The translations under genes and the position numbers were made by a program. Positions 6,572 to 11,382 of a stretch of DNA of 64,000 nucleotides are shown here, in pieces. Within the stretch, counting starts at the first letter, position 1. Each line of letters begins with the position of its first letter. The DNA comes from Neisseria sp. (GTDB lineage: Bacteria > Pseudomonadota > Gammaproteobacteria > Burkholderiales > Neisseriaceae). The notes under the pieces were generated by a model. It searched no databases. It was not told where the DNA came from and saw nothing but the letters and a program-made list of their open reading frames with translations. The stretch is taken from the NCBI RefSeq assembly GCF_030530745.1, contig NZ_JAUMUI010000006.1:1-64000 (forward strand). The letters are read 5' to 3'.

Positions 6572-6630
6572 TGTCGTTTCCTTTTTTTTCAGACGGCCTT
6601 TTAGTGCTGCAAAGGCCGTCTGAAAACAGA

Positions 6631-8568
6631 TTAATCGTGTGCCAGTGCGTCGATGGGGTTCAGCTGCGAGGCGCGTTTGGCGGGCATAAAGCCGAACACC
6701 ACGCCGATGGCGGTGGAGCAGGTTACGGCGGCCACGATGGAGAGGGTTGAAAAAGACATGGCGAAATCTTTGACAAAATAATTGAACACCACGCTGATTC
6801 CGAAAGAAAACAGCACGCCTGCCAAACCGCCGATCAGGCAGATCAGCACGGCTTCTATCAGAAACTGCTGCAGGATATTGCTCTGCCGCGCCCCGATGGC
6901 CATGCGGATACCGATTTCTTTCGTGCGTTCGGTAACCGAAACCAGCATGATGTTCATCACGCCGATGCCGCCCACCACCAGCGAAATCAGGGCGATGCAC
7001 GAAATCAGCAGCGTCATGGTGCCGGTTGCGCTTTCAACGGTTTGTTTGATGCTGTCGCTGTTTTGCATAAAAAAGTCTTTTACGCCGTGGCGCGAGAGCA
7101 GAAGCTCGTCCAAGCTGTTTTCGGCAGCCTGCGAATTGACGTTGTCTTTGATTTTTACCGTAATCGAATTAATGTGCCGCTGGCCGCTTATCTGGTTGAT
7201 AACAGTGGTGTAGGGCGCCCATATCTGCAGGTTTTCGCTGCTGCCGAAACCGCTGTTGTCTTTTTCGGTGATGCCGATAACCTTCAGCGGGCGTTTTTTA
7301 AACAAAATGGTTTTGCCGATGGGGTTGGTGCCGTCTGAAAAAAACTTGTCTTTGGTGTTTTGGTCGATAACCGCCACCTGCGCATTGTTTTTCACGTCGT
7401 CATCGTTATACAGGCGGCCTTCGGCGATCTTGATGCCGCGCACGTCGAAATACTGTTCGCCCGCTCCGTAAAGCTGGGCGGTGGCGTCAATATTGCGGTA
7501 GGTGGCTGTGCCGCTTGATGAAACCATCGGCGTTACGCTGTCTACATAACCCTGTTTGGCAATCGCCTCGGCATCGCTGATGGTCAGTGTGCGTATCCTG
7601 CCCGAGCGGCGGTCGCCGAAGCCGCGCCCCGGATGTACGCTGATGGTGTTGGTGCCGATGGCGCTGATGTCGGCCAGGATTTTTTCCTGCGATCCGCGCC
7701 CCAAGGCAACCACCGACACCACCGAGGCAATGCCGATAATGATGCCGAGCATGGTCAGCAGCGAGCGCATTTTATGTGCCGTAATCGCCTGCACCGACAT
7801 GCGGAACGACTCCATAAACTGGTCTTTGAAAAACAGCCACGAGGTGTTTTCTTTGATGCTCTCCACGCTGCTGGGGGCGATTTCGGTGTTTTTGCTGGTG
7901 TCGGCAATGATTTCGCCGTCGCGGATTTCAATTACGCGGTTGGCATTGGCGGCAATGCCCGGATCGTGCGTTACCAAAATAATGGTATGACCCTGTTTGT
8001 GCAGGCCGTGAATGATTTCCATCACGTTTTCGCCCGATTGGGTATCCAGTGCGCCGGTGGGTTCGTCGGCCAAAATGATTTCCCCGCCGTTCATCAGCGC
8101 ACGGGCGATACTCACACGCTGCTGCTGGCCGCCTGAAAGTTCGCTGGGTTTGTTGTCTTCTTTGGTTTCCAAACCCAAATCATGCAAGAGGCTGTCGGCA
8201 CGCCTGTTACGTTCTGCATGTTCCATGCCCGCATACACCGAGGGCAGAGCCACATTGTCGCGGGCGTTGAGCGCGCTGATTAGATTGTAGCGCTGGAAAA
8301 TAAAGCCGAAGCGCTTGCGGCGCAGGCCTGCCAGTTCGTCGGCGGCCATTTTCGCCGTTTCCACCCCGTCTATTTTGTAAGACCCGGAAGTGGCGGTGTC
8401 CAAGCAGCCGAGAATATTCATCAGTGTGGATTTTCCCGAACCGGATTGGCCGATAATCGCCACGAAGTCGCCTTTTTCTATGGTGAGGCTGACATCTTTC
8501 AAAACGTGCACGCGGTTGTCGCCGCTGCCGAAATAACGGTTGATGTTTTTACATTCGATCAAACTCAT
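6631..8568 (-). CDS. macB: MacB-type ABC exporter, ATPase fused to permease
   Basis: The 645-residue protein starts with an ABC ATPase (about residues 1-230) containing Walker [10 protein letters not shown], signature LSGGQQQR and Walker B with DEPTGALD. A first membrane helix follows near residue 275 ([19 protein letters not shown]). Then come a large periplasmic MacB domain and three C-terminal membrane helices. MacB is a mechanotransmission exporter of macrolides, peptides or glycolipids with MacA and an outer membrane channel. The start at 8568 (MSLIEC) is chosen because the domain begins there. It is 13 bp downstream of macA, so the two are co-transcribed. A DUS lies inside the gene near 7331. 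Confidence 0.93.
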
Positions 8569-8581
8569 TGCCGGCCTCCCG

Positions 8582-9760
8582 TTACATCGGCCCCATCGGG
8601 CCTCCGCCGCGGCGGCCGTTATTTTTTGCATCGGCGGCGGTGGCTTCGGAAATAATCACGTTTTCGCCTTCTTTCACACCCGAAATAATCTGGGTGTTGG
8701 TGCCGTCGCTCAAACCGGTTTTTACTTCGCGTTCCTGCACTTGGTTTTTCGCTCCCAGGATGCGCACAACTTTCTTGCCGTTTTTGGTTTTAACGGCCAG
8801 GTTCGGCACGCTCAGCACATTATCCGCTTTATTAATGACGATGGTGTTTTCGGTGGTCATGCCGATATGCAGCGAGCCGTCTTCGTTCGGAACCAGTGAA
8901 CGGGCATAGTAGTAGACTGCCGTATCGGTTGTGTCGGTGCTGGTCGTATAAGAACCTTTCGACATCGTGGTCAGCCCCGGATCGACTGTGTCGATAACGG
9001 CGCTGCGGGGGGTGTCGGGCTGTGAAAGAATCGTGAACGTCAGATTCTGGCCGGCTTTAACCTTGCCCGCATCACCTTCTGCAATCTGCATTTTATTCAG
9101 CATTTTGCTTAAATCAGCCAATTGGATAACAGTGGGAATACTCTGCACGGCGGTAACCGTTTGGCCTTCTTCCACCGGAATGGACACTACGGTGCCGTCC
9201 ATGGTGGCTACGATGCGCGTATAGCCCAAATCCGTTTCGGCGGTATTGATTGAAATCTGGGTTTGTTTGATTGAAGACTTTAATTCGGCCACAGAGGCTT
9301 TTGCCGAAGCCAAAGCGTCTTCCGCGTCTTCAAGTTCCTGCCTCGAAGTGGCATCTTCCGCCCACAGCGCTTTTTCGCGCTTATATTTCTTTTCGGCGGT
9401 GCGCTGTTTGATTTCGGCGGAAACCAGCTGGGCTTTATAGGTTTCCAGCCTGGCCTTGTTGGTATTGAGTGTATTGATTTGCGTAGTCGAATCGATTTCG
9501 GCGATCAAATCGCCTTTTTTCACCTGCTGGCCGATTTTTACATGCAGTTTTTTAATCTGCCCTGTAGCCTGCGAACCCACGGTAACCAATTGTGCCGCCG
9601 AAATTTCTCCTGTTGCACTCACGGTTTGGCGGATGTTGATGCGGCTTACCGGCTGGGTAAGGTAGTTCACCTCGTTTTTAGGTTTGAAATAAGTCCATGC
9701 CGCAAAGCCCAATGCTGCTGCAGCAGCCAAACCTGCAATCCATTTAATCGCTTTTGCCAT
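8582..9760 (-). CDS. macA: MacA-type periplasmic adaptor subunit
   Basis: The 392-residue protein has an N-terminal membrane anchor (about residues 5-22), a lipoyl-like half-motif (VTVGSQATGQIKKLHVKIGQ), a helical hairpin rich in Lys, Glu and Ala (about 90-170) and beta-barrel domains. This is the HlyD/MacA fold. It joins MacB in the inner membrane to the outer channel. The C-terminus is glycine and methionine-rich (NNGRRGGGPMGPM). The frame continues upstream to 9817, but the anchor and a GGAAC ribosome site favour 9760. It is the first gene of the operon, divergent from the pilin genes. Confidence 0.92.
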   Translation of the reverse strand: MAKAIKWIAGLAAAAALGFAAWTYFKPKNEVNYLTQPVSRINIRQTVSATGEISAAQLVTVGSQATGQIKKLHVKIGQQVKKGDLIAEIDSTTQINTLNTNKARLETYKAQLVSAEIKQRTAEKKYKREKALWAEDATSRQELEDAEDALASAKASVAELKSSIKQTQISINTAETDLGYTRIVATMDGTVVSIPVEEGQTVTAVQSIPTVIQLADLSKMLNKMQIAEGDAGKVKAGQNLTFTILSQPDTPRSAVIDTVDPGLTTMSKGSYTTSTDTTDTAVYYYARSLVPNEDGSLHIGMTTENTIVINKADNVLSVPNLAVKTKNGKKVVRILGAKNQVQEREVKTGLSDGTNTQIISGVKEGENVIISEATAADAKNNGRRGGGPMGPM

Positions 9761-10011
9761 AATGTTCCAATATTTAAGATTATCAGTTACGGATATTTTT
9801 GAAAAACAAGCCAACAAACGGGCGAGAGTTTACTGCAAAAGAAGTGGGCCGCCAAGCGTAAAGCATAAAAAAATAAATATTAACTAATTGTTATTAAATG
9901 TATTTTTTTATTGCTTTTACACTGGCGGGGAGAAATTTTTACAAATTTTCCCGCTTGCCGTGCTTATCCGTAAACATAAAATACAACAGTTTCTTAATTA
10001 AATTGTTCCGC

Positions 10012-10112
10012 TTGGTATATTTACGATACCAAATATCGCATTTGCGCGCTAAAAAAATGAAATCAATTTATACTTTGCAATCTTAAGCATCTGGTTTAGT
10101 ATATTTATACTA
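10012..10112. promoter_or_regulatory. Two operator-like inverted repeats between macA and the pilin genes
   Basis: The 440-bp divergent gap (9761-10199) is very AT-rich and has no gene. It holds two inverted repeats with a shared core: TTGGTAT with ATACCAA (10012-10032) and TAGTAT with ATACTA (10097-10112). Both contain GTATATTTA. They could bind one regulator controlling macA or the pilin genes. No known regulator is recognised. Confidence 0.35.
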
Positions 10113-10199
10113 TACATGTTCGGCTTAGAAAGGTGCATGAGGCATACCCGCTTCTTTAATAAACAAACCGACGACTCACTTATCCGATACAGACACAAC

Positions 10200-10616
10200 A
10201 TGAAAACGCAACAACAAGGCTTTACCCTCATCGAACTGATGATTGCGGTGCTTATCTTGGCCATTCTGGCCACCATCGCCTATCCATCTTACGAAACCTA
10301 TGTCCGCCAAACACGCCTGGAAAGCGTGCGTGCCGATTTGATGATCAATGCTCAGATGATGGAGCGTTATTATGCGCAGAACCGCCGTTTCCCTCCTAGT
10401 CAAGCCGATGCATCAGATGTACAAGAATCTTTAAAGCAGAATGAGTATTTTGATATCAGCTACCAAGCAAGCGGCGAAAACAACTATATCTTGACTGCAA
10501 AGCACAACGATAAAAACCCCAATGAAAACCGCTATATGAAGATAGACGGTAACGGGGTGGTTACTTTATGCAAAGAAAATGCATCGGCAAACGAAGAATG
10601 CTATATGTATAAATAA
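10200..10616 (+). CDS. Type IV pilin-like protein, paralogue of ComP
   Basis: The 138-residue prepilin has a short leader ending in glycine 7 and the class III signature GFTLIELMIAVLILAILA, with the glutamate at mature position 5. PilD should cleave and methylate it. The segment after the helix (YVRQTRLESVRADL, then MMERYYAQNRRF) aligns with the same part of the ComP encoded next door. Only two cysteines are present, in CKENASANEEC near the C-terminus, versus four in ComP. It is shorter than typical major pilin PilE. The likely role is a minor pilin. The ATG at 10200 is chosen because it gives a standard leader. Confidence 0.88.
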   Translation: MKTQQQGFTLIELMIAVLILAILATIAYPSYETYVRQTRLESVRADLMINAQMMERYYAQNRRFPPSQADASDVQESLKQNEYFDISYQASGENNYILTAKHNDKNPNENRYMKIDGNGVVTLCKENASANEECYMYK

Positions 10617-10709
10617 TCATACAACAAGCTAAAAACACACGTTTTTTTCTTTACAACCGAACCGGGTGTGCGCATACTTTCCCGCAAACCGAAAATAAAG
10701 GGGAAAACC

Positions 10710-11174
10710 ATGCAGAATGCCTGCCGACAAGGATTCACATTGCTTGAACTGCTCGCTGTTATAGCCATATCGGCTGTTTTGGCCGTGATTGCGGTTCCCG
10801 CTTATCAAAAATATGTCCGCGACACCCGTTTGAACCATGCCCGCACGGTGCTGCTGCAAAACGCCCATTTTATGGAGCGCTTTTATCAGCAGCACCGTTC
10901 GTTTAAGCAAACCTCCACCACATGGCCGGTTTTGCCGCATACCGAAACAGAACATTTCTGTATCCGCCCGCAAGGAAACGCCCGCGGCGCGCGCGACGGC
11001 AAATTCACCTTGAAAGCCGTTGCATTCGATAAAAACGGCGAAGCCCGCGTTGTCAAAATCAACGAATCGCTCACTGCCGTGGTATGTGAAAGCAGCGCCA
11101 GTACCTGTGAGGACAAAGGTGGTTTTTTTGCCGGCGGCAGCAGGGTGGATAAAAAGTGCAGGGTATTCCAATAA
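10710..11174 (+). CDS. comP: ComP, minor pilin and DNA uptake sequence receptor
   Basis: The 154-residue prepilin has a leader ending at glycine 8 and the signature GFTLLELLAVIAISAVLAV. From memory of meningococcal ComP, the region NAHFMERFYQQHRSFKQTST, a FCIR motif, FTLKAVAFDKN and a C-terminal part with three more cysteines align closely, with the same four-cysteine pattern. ComP is the minor pilin that binds DUS DNA electrostatically during transformation. A GGGGAAAA ribosome site precedes the ATG at 10710. It lies 93 bp after the paralogous pilin gene and is probably co-transcribed. An inverted DUS terminates it. The assignment rests on remembered sequence, not a search. Confidence 0.88.
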   Translation: MQNACRQGFTLLELLAVIAISAVLAVIAVPAYQKYVRDTRLNHARTVLLQNAHFMERFYQQHRSFKQTSTTWPVLPHTETEHFCIRPQGNARGARDGKFTLKAVAFDKNGEARVVKINESLTAVVCESSASTCEDKGGFFAGGSRVDKKCRVFQ

Positions 11175-11184
11175 AAATTCAAAA

Positions 11185-11212
11185 CAGGCCGTCTGAAATT
11201 TCAGACGGCCTG
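11185..11212 (+). terminator. Inverted DUS terminator after comP
   Basis: CAGGCCGTCTGAAA and TTTCAGACGGCCTG form a perfect hairpin with almost no loop, followed by TTTC. It lies 10 bp after the comP stop codon. Confidence 0.8.
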
Positions 11213-11236
11213 TTTCATAGCTAAGCCATTTATTTA

Positions 11237-11382
11237 GAGACCTTTGCAACCCCCCCCCCGGATGCGGCGCATTTCTGCGTTGTGCGCTGCCCGCCCGCTT
11301 AGCTTTGTACTTGATATGCCTGCGCCCGCTGCACTGCTACGCCTTGAACTGCATCCACATCCGGAGGTTTTGCAAAGGTCTC
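11237..11382. mobile_element. GAGACC-ended miniature element, copy R1
   Basis: The 146-bp element starts GAGACCTTTGCAA and ends TTTTGCAAAGGTCTC, and is flanked on both sides by ATTTA, a likely 5-bp target duplication. A run of ten C (11250-11259) follows the left end. The interior shares TGCTACGCCTTGAACTGCAT with copies at 22512 and 59004. It carries no gene. Confidence 0.75.

Follow-up and report, generated by a model that had tools for sequence, protein, structure and literature searches.

The window, a 64,000-nucleotide stretch of a Neisseria contig, contains a pilV-comP locus (Table 1) that probably encodes a DUS receptor and a rival subunit competing with it in one pilus. Both open reading frames are intact and lie on the forward strand, separated by 93 nt, and both products are class III prepilins, with the N-termini MKTQQQG/FTLIEL... 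(PilV) and MQNACRQG/FTLLEL... (ComP). The two proteins are 38% identical in a pairwise comparison over the pair. The shared pattern that an earlier note on this DNA had pointed out is present in both (YVRQTRL/MERYYAQNRRF in the first, YVRDTRL/MERFYQQHRSF in the second), and its description of the cysteines is also correct: the second protein has all four of ComP, plus a fifth in its leader, and the first has the C-terminal two (C124 and C134 of the prepilin), so that the ordinary pilin disulfide pair is kept. The Pfam family ComP_DUS (PF16732) matches both proteins (2e-14 and 3.5e-12), and there is a third, marginal match elsewhere in the same genome (27.4 bits, with a cut-off of 27.3), so the family name alone is no proof of DNA binding. 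The best NCBIfam match of the macA-like gene is MacA (1.2e-72), below the cut-off of that model. An alternative start of comP, GTG 10668, lies upstream. Right after comP, an inverted-repeat element occupies window positions 11237-11382, with GAGACCTTTGCAA followed by a C10 tract and with TTTTGCAAAGGTCTC at the opposite end; TTTGCAAAGGTCTC of this element recurs near window position 40.

Table 1. Features of the pilV-comP locus and its surroundings, in window coordinates
Feature	Position	Strand	Basis or remark
macA-like gene	8582..9817	-	Open reading frame; divergent neighbour of pilV
macB-like gene, then outer-membrane efflux gene	8631 down to 5177		Open reading frames; past the macA-like gene
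pilV, 138-aa prepilin, residue 5 Glu	10200..10616	+	2 cysteines (D-region disulfide), without DD region
PilV leader MKTQQQG, cleavage before FTLIE	10200..10220	+	Sequence; N_methyl PF07963, 8.8e-11
comP promoter-like site, TTTACA-17 nt-CATACT	10650..10678	+	Between pilV and comP; motif recurrence
AAAGGGG, likely ribosome-binding site of comP	10697..10703	+	Sequence; similar site in several relatives
comP, 154-aa DUS receptor prepilin, residue 5 Glu	10710..11174	+	4 conserved cysteines
Inverted AG-DUS pair, terminator-like stem	11180..11217	.	Directly after comP

By tree and gene neighbourhood, the first gene is assigned as an orthologue of Neisseria PilV, not as a second DNA receptor. In a tree of 160 pilins (from stretches of 79 genomes, that of the window among them, and six more pilins of the window's genome), of the kind that the earlier note had proposed, the first protein falls within a PilV clade of 39 rows (SH-aLRT 96); the six own-genome pilins are all outside this clade. 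The clade consists of genes of the window's genus only, among them one of genome G028 that matches the structure 5v0m at 1.4e-56, a chain named PilV in passages of PMC6370729. Because the ComP of G028 is nearly identical to N. meningitidis ComP (2m3k, 8.5e-74), the PilV of this genome is called meningococcal-type here. A profile of 12 window-type PilV sequences among the 39 of the clade, meningococcal-type rows excluded, ranks 5v0m first among solved chains (1.2e-19, versus 1.9e-11 for ComP 2m3k); as a single sequence, the first protein finds a geopilin helix best (2.2e-8), 5v0m second (1e-7) and ComP at 1.4e-5.

In a subset of 49 rows the first protein groups with PilV, a position within ComP being rejected (p-AU 0.0098), and the ComP rows form one clade (support 95/94). 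The PilV and ComP rows together stand apart from three PilE-type rows of the window's own genome (95/98), which upholds the claim that the two genes are paralogues; PilE-type pilins were accordingly discarded as the closest relatives of the first gene. Support for a single PilV group is weak (22/69), and the AU test leaves standing, in the same subset, an alternative in which window-type PilV joins ComP and meningococcal-type PilV stays outside (p-AU 0.573), so rooting the family takes more than the tree. Three groupings, picked after the 160-row tree, were submitted to the AU test: one coincided with the tree, another survived and the third was rejected. The PilE and PilX labels of the own-genome pilins come from reading of the sequences, not from library names.

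Since the tree leaves the step between window-type and meningococcal-type PilV weak, the identity of the first gene is decided by the shared macA locus: a macA-like gene lies divergently beside all 39 of the PilV-clade genes, at distances of 226-746 nt, with or without comP following. The first protein resembles Neisseria PilV (5v0m, 5v23) in sharing the clade and the macA-adjacent locus of the G028 gene, and in its one disulfide, its Glu5 and the absence of a DD region. It is 44% identical to the meningococcal-type PilV of G028, from which it differs in a later first cysteine (TLC versus ETC), in a more ComP-like C-terminus and in having comP as its direct neighbour. The ETC-like motif at the first cysteine is found in the meningococcal-type PilV of loci L101, L103, L106, L117, L129, L154 and others, and the TLC cysteine of window-type PilV comes about one strand later. 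The PilV of G011 (L074), alone among the 39, has four cysteines. The P. aeruginosa-type PilV (TIGR02523, of the FimU-PilVWXE set), which shares with the window PilV the name and the prepilin N-terminus, was rejected at 18.9 bits against a cut-off of 52.2.

The second gene encodes ComP, as the earlier note had held and as its sequence indicates, and cognate DUS binding is predicted for its product. Over the soluble part the protein matches the solved structures 2m3k (2.9e-34), 5hz7 (1.8e-33) and 2nba (7.1e-30), and it resembles these ComP proteins of N. meningitidis and N. subflava in its four cysteines, its DD region, its equivalents of R78, K94 and K108 (R, K and K, respectively) and its DUS-rich genome. 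The disulfides of ComP are C76-C125 and C118-C139 in mature N. meningitidis numbering (passages of PMC4906244), and all four cysteines are kept in 69 of 69 ComP-clade genomes. The comP of the window adjoins pilV, whereas in the meningococcus- and subflava-like genomes examined the gene follows an rRNA operon and is next to a ComE-type gene.

The ComP-specific cysteines C76 and C125 occur in 69 of 69 ComP and in none of 39 PilV. At C76, R78 and K94 the window PilV has Asp, Ser and Thr, with a gap at C125 and a Lys kept at K108; some basic residues at these ComP columns are kept by PilV elsewhere. With 11 residues from cysteine to cysteine (C124 to C134), the window PilV is devoid of the C76-C125 disulfide and the DD region; the corresponding stretch, from the penultimate cysteine column to the last, measures 21-30 residues in ComP (25 in 39 of 69) and 7-12 residues in 30 of the 39 PilV. 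The net charge from residue 29 to the end is +7 for the window ComP and -2 for the window PilV, and ComP is the more positive of the two in 37 of 39 genome pairs. Structure models that drew on an alignment of two rows were of poor quality (mean pLDDT 60.6 and 62.4); that of ComP still retrieves ComP in a structure search, and that of PilV has no structure match at E 0.001 or better.

The surrounding DNA uses the AG-DUS dialect, in agreement with the earlier note. The window has 67 exact copies of AG-DUS (mean 0.01 in shuffles), one of AT-DUS and none of AG-mucDUS, and the genome as a whole has 2134 of AG-DUS versus 155 of AT-DUS. No exact AG-DUS occurs in positions 6625-11185 (about 4.5 kb, comprising most of macB, macA, pilV and comP), the first beyond this stretch being the inverted pair that starts 12 bases after comP.

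In passages of PMC3999279, ComP raises and PilV lowers transformability, PilV appears to compete for access to pilus assembly, and the antagonism is reported for gonococcus; passages of PMC3868556 and PMC3630211 also describe PilV as an antagonist of ComP, and mutation of pilV raised the competence of a meningococcal strain carrying the comP of N. subflava (PMC3868556, PMC3999279). A tip complex with either ComP or PilV has been proposed, the loss of both resulting in cells without pili (passages of PMC6370729). By analogy, we infer the same antagonism in the species of the window. Among the options that the earlier note had listed for the first gene, that of a competitor tuning uptake fits best because Neisseria PilV is reported to antagonize ComP, and that of a second receptor falls away. 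According to the proposed mechanism, the prepilin peptidase would process both PilV and ComP, which would then be built into one type IV pilus, where ComP would bind AG-DUS DNA through its DD region, its beta1-beta2 loop and a positive stripe, and PilV, the same pilin frame without the DNA-binding parts, would compete with it for places in the pilus; the PilV:ComP ratio would set the number of displayed DNA-binding sites, and a promoter of comP's own between the genes would allow this ratio to be set separately despite their adjacency. PilV seems to be dispensable; a PilV-clade gene was not found in 8 of the 47 genus members (some of them incomplete drafts), and ComP was found in 46 of the 47.

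The reading of the first protein as a diverged second DNA-binding pilin that acts beside ComP was not borne out, and is now highly improbable: paralogy, the shared PF16732 match and the Lys at the K108 column would speak for it, but tree and macA-pilV locus make the protein a PilV orthologue, most of the DUS-binding features are absent (C76, C125, R78, K94 and the DD region), and its soluble part is net negative. It is unlikely, to a lesser degree, that PilV has some other role in the pilus (adhesion, pilin modification or pilus dynamics) and no effect on DNA uptake, its adjacency to comP being a leftover of the old duplication. PilV has been described as an adhesin subunit in pathogenic Neisseria (passages of PMC4471445), pilV and comP are unlinked in many genomes, and the intergenic promoter-like site suggests separate transcription; on the other side are the antagonism reported in gonococcus, the gain in competence of the subflava-comP meningococcal strain upon pilV mutation, and the presence of both proteins, built on the same frame, in the same filament.

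The duplication proposed by the earlier note holds insofar as the two genes are paralogues, but it is old, not local, both clades spanning the genus. A recent local duplication of comP as the source of the first gene, to which adjacency and 38% identity might point, can be practically dismissed: it is contradicted by the trees, where ComP is a single clade (95/94). Both genes have nearer relatives in other genomes than in each other (with G019, 75% identity for PilV and 92% for ComP), and the pilin-comP tandem is found in seven genera. In the alignment from which the ComP identities were taken, one short row (L154:1-60) is an error; no count rests on this alignment, whose sole use was for percentages relative to its first row. 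The locus, which we read as one of receptor and competitor, may be compared with ComP and KK03_01180 of Kingella kingae, likewise a ComP plus a second minor pilin of similar size; in passages of PMC12607826, however, both of these promote transformation, KK03_01180 not opposing it, and their genes occupy different genomic sites, each distant from other pilus genes.

Among 84 genomes of the family, the 69 with a ComP-clade gene were kept; the 15 excluded had no ComP match at 1e-12 (G007, G041, G057), a weak match (G005, G006, G008), single ComP-like pilins outside the ComP clade (G056, G059-G065) or only a PilV-like gene (G066). The lists of ComP and PilV were drawn by hand from the 160-row tree, 36 other pilins being set aside, of which 26 entered the comparison of residue 5 below. 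Pattern finders that demand Glu (or Asp) at position 5 missed many ComP and were not used for counts; a generic helix-pattern scan of named genomes returned at least 80 loci, none titled Neisseria among the matches listed. A pilin neighbour, which the earlier note had expected in close relatives, is present: a same-strand pilin lies directly upstream of comP in 29 of the 69 genomes, representing seven genera, with gaps of -1 to 202 nt, a recurrence that, together with the PF16732 match of both proteins, speaks against a chance pairing. Within the window's genus the tandem occurs in 21 of 47 genomes, with an upstream partner from the PilV clade, and outside it in eight genomes of six other genera, where the partner is on the PilV side of the tree without a firm placement. 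Parsimony on the ComP tree requires 7 changes of the tandem state. Being spread over seven genera, the pilV-comP tandem is likely to be the ancestral arrangement in the family. It is not tied to one dialect, since the tandem genomes use AG (15), wad (5), sim (4), eik (2) and king (1), with too few copies to say in 2, a tally that rests on 4-60 kb fetched per genome. In G025, G026, G039 and G050 (L098, L135, L138, L139), comP is 145-805 nt from macA and no pilV was detected between them, apparently a loss of pilV in each. The tandem has been rearranged locally in G024 (L087), where pilV and comP lie on opposite strands with 1.1 kb between them.

In the window genome, a separate promoter for comP seems to lie between the two genes. 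A site of the form TTTACA/TTGACA - ~17 nt - CATACT/CATAAT recurs between pilV and comP, its strict motif being found in 13 of 29 tandem genomes (0.1 expected in shuffles) and in 2 of 38 non-tandem genomes (0.2 expected), an excess that is overstated because the motif was defined after the alignment had been seen and the genomes are related. The count covers 67 of the 69 genomes (29 tandem and 38 not), G077 having been skipped and G046 having only 19 bases upstream. A generic scan counted 2 promoter-like sites in the region against 2.9 expected, hence no enrichment. We infer that the recurrent site is an active promoter. The strict motif is absent from 16 of the 29 tandem genomes, and G083, G067 and G001, with gaps of -1, 12 and 23 nt, respectively, have no room for it; since the genes of G083 overlap by one base, co-transcription is likely there.

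In eight single-contig genomes (G015, G016, G017, G022, G028, G033, G044, G045), comP lies 0.57-0.96 kb behind a 5S rRNA gene on the same strand, and Rfam models detected rRNA in 9 of the 12 comP loci searched. The loci with comP behind a 16S-23S-5S operon are L102, L105, L116, L125-L128, L141, L143, L144, L146, L147 and L151-L153. A ComE-type small protein is encoded between the 5S gene and comP in the four loci that were read, and the one such protein tested matches the helix-hairpin-helix family PF12836 (2e-22). All four comP copies of G016 are behind rRNA operons, as are three of four in the subflava-like G033 (2nba match 4.7e-75) and two of four in both G022 and G044; G045 has one copy behind an rRNA operon and one elsewhere. 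In gonococcus, too, comE is presumably located behind rRNA operons. Helix-hairpin-helix matches of ComE size near rRNA operons are also found in five tandem genomes (G010, G019, G029, G047, G053), so comE was probably there before comP came. In the window's own draft genome, a single-protein search for comE gave no match, and a search with the helix-hairpin-helix family gave one, in an open frame of 734 aa; because single-contig relatives have ComE-size matches near rRNA operons, the gap is probably one of assembly. In five other drafts (G013, G023, G031, G046, G048), a contig ends 19-601 bases away from comP, consistent with assembly breakage at an rRNA repeat but no proof of it. G035 (L111, L112) and G027 (L130) each carry two comP copies, on opposite strands and separated by about 13 kb; the stretches fetched showed no rRNA operon. 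A literature search, largely outside the subscription literature, found no paper joining comP, rRNA operon, Neisseria and pilin, and novelty is unproven. The comparison suggests that the rRNA operon-comE-comP arrangement of meningococcus- and subflava-like genomes, sometimes in multiple copies, is derived, and some well-studied Neisseria appear to have lost the pilV-comP pairing through relocation of comP.

Glu5 of a mature pilin docks the incoming subunit under its predecessor. In the ComP of the 69 genomes (L068-L187), residue 5 is mostly Gln (34) or Glu (31), with Asn in two genomes, Arg in one and His in one; it is thus other than Glu in 38 of 69 ComP, versus none of 39 PilV, and the 26 other pilins compared have Glu (17) or Asp (9). 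Residue 5 of ComP has changed at least 7 times on a 79-row tree and at least 11 times on a 69-row tree, both computed from alignments that leave out the first seven residues. Passages of PMC6370729 argue for a tip position of any pilin that lacks Glu5; this reading, taken strictly, is weakened by the distribution of ComP and PilV along the filament (passages of PMC10191384) and by the ability of Glu5 mutants to co-assemble with wild type (passages of PMC4471445). Glu5 in ComP goes unmentioned in the literature passages covered here, among them those of PMC10191384, PMC4471445 and PMC6370729. It is conceivable, if somewhat doubtful, that PilV and ComP are a decoy and receptor from one locus that compete for the same place in the pilus under different assembly rules, ComP without Glu5 acting as an initiator near the tip and PilV as a shaft-competent or alternative subunit. 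If so, where the receptor sits in the pilus would vary from species to species. In parallel, the lineages with broken linkage, in which comP came to lie next to comE downstream of rRNA operons and reached as many as four copies, would have tilted the balance of ComP to PilV in favour of uptake. As Glu5 was lost unevenly, comparing species could test whether ComP lies at the tip or along the shaft.

PilV and ComP are themselves already known kinds of protein, of which the window pair adds another instance; what deserves specialist attention is the age of the tandem, the relocation of comP to rRNA-comE loci and the pattern of Glu5. Receptor and antagonist have been studied in meningococcus and gonococcus (passages of the papers cited here). 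The comP and pilV genes are far apart in the meningococcus-like G028 and adjacent in the window, and comparison across the family suggests that adjacency is the original arrangement. The window offers one locus in which receptor, competitor and dialect may be studied jointly.
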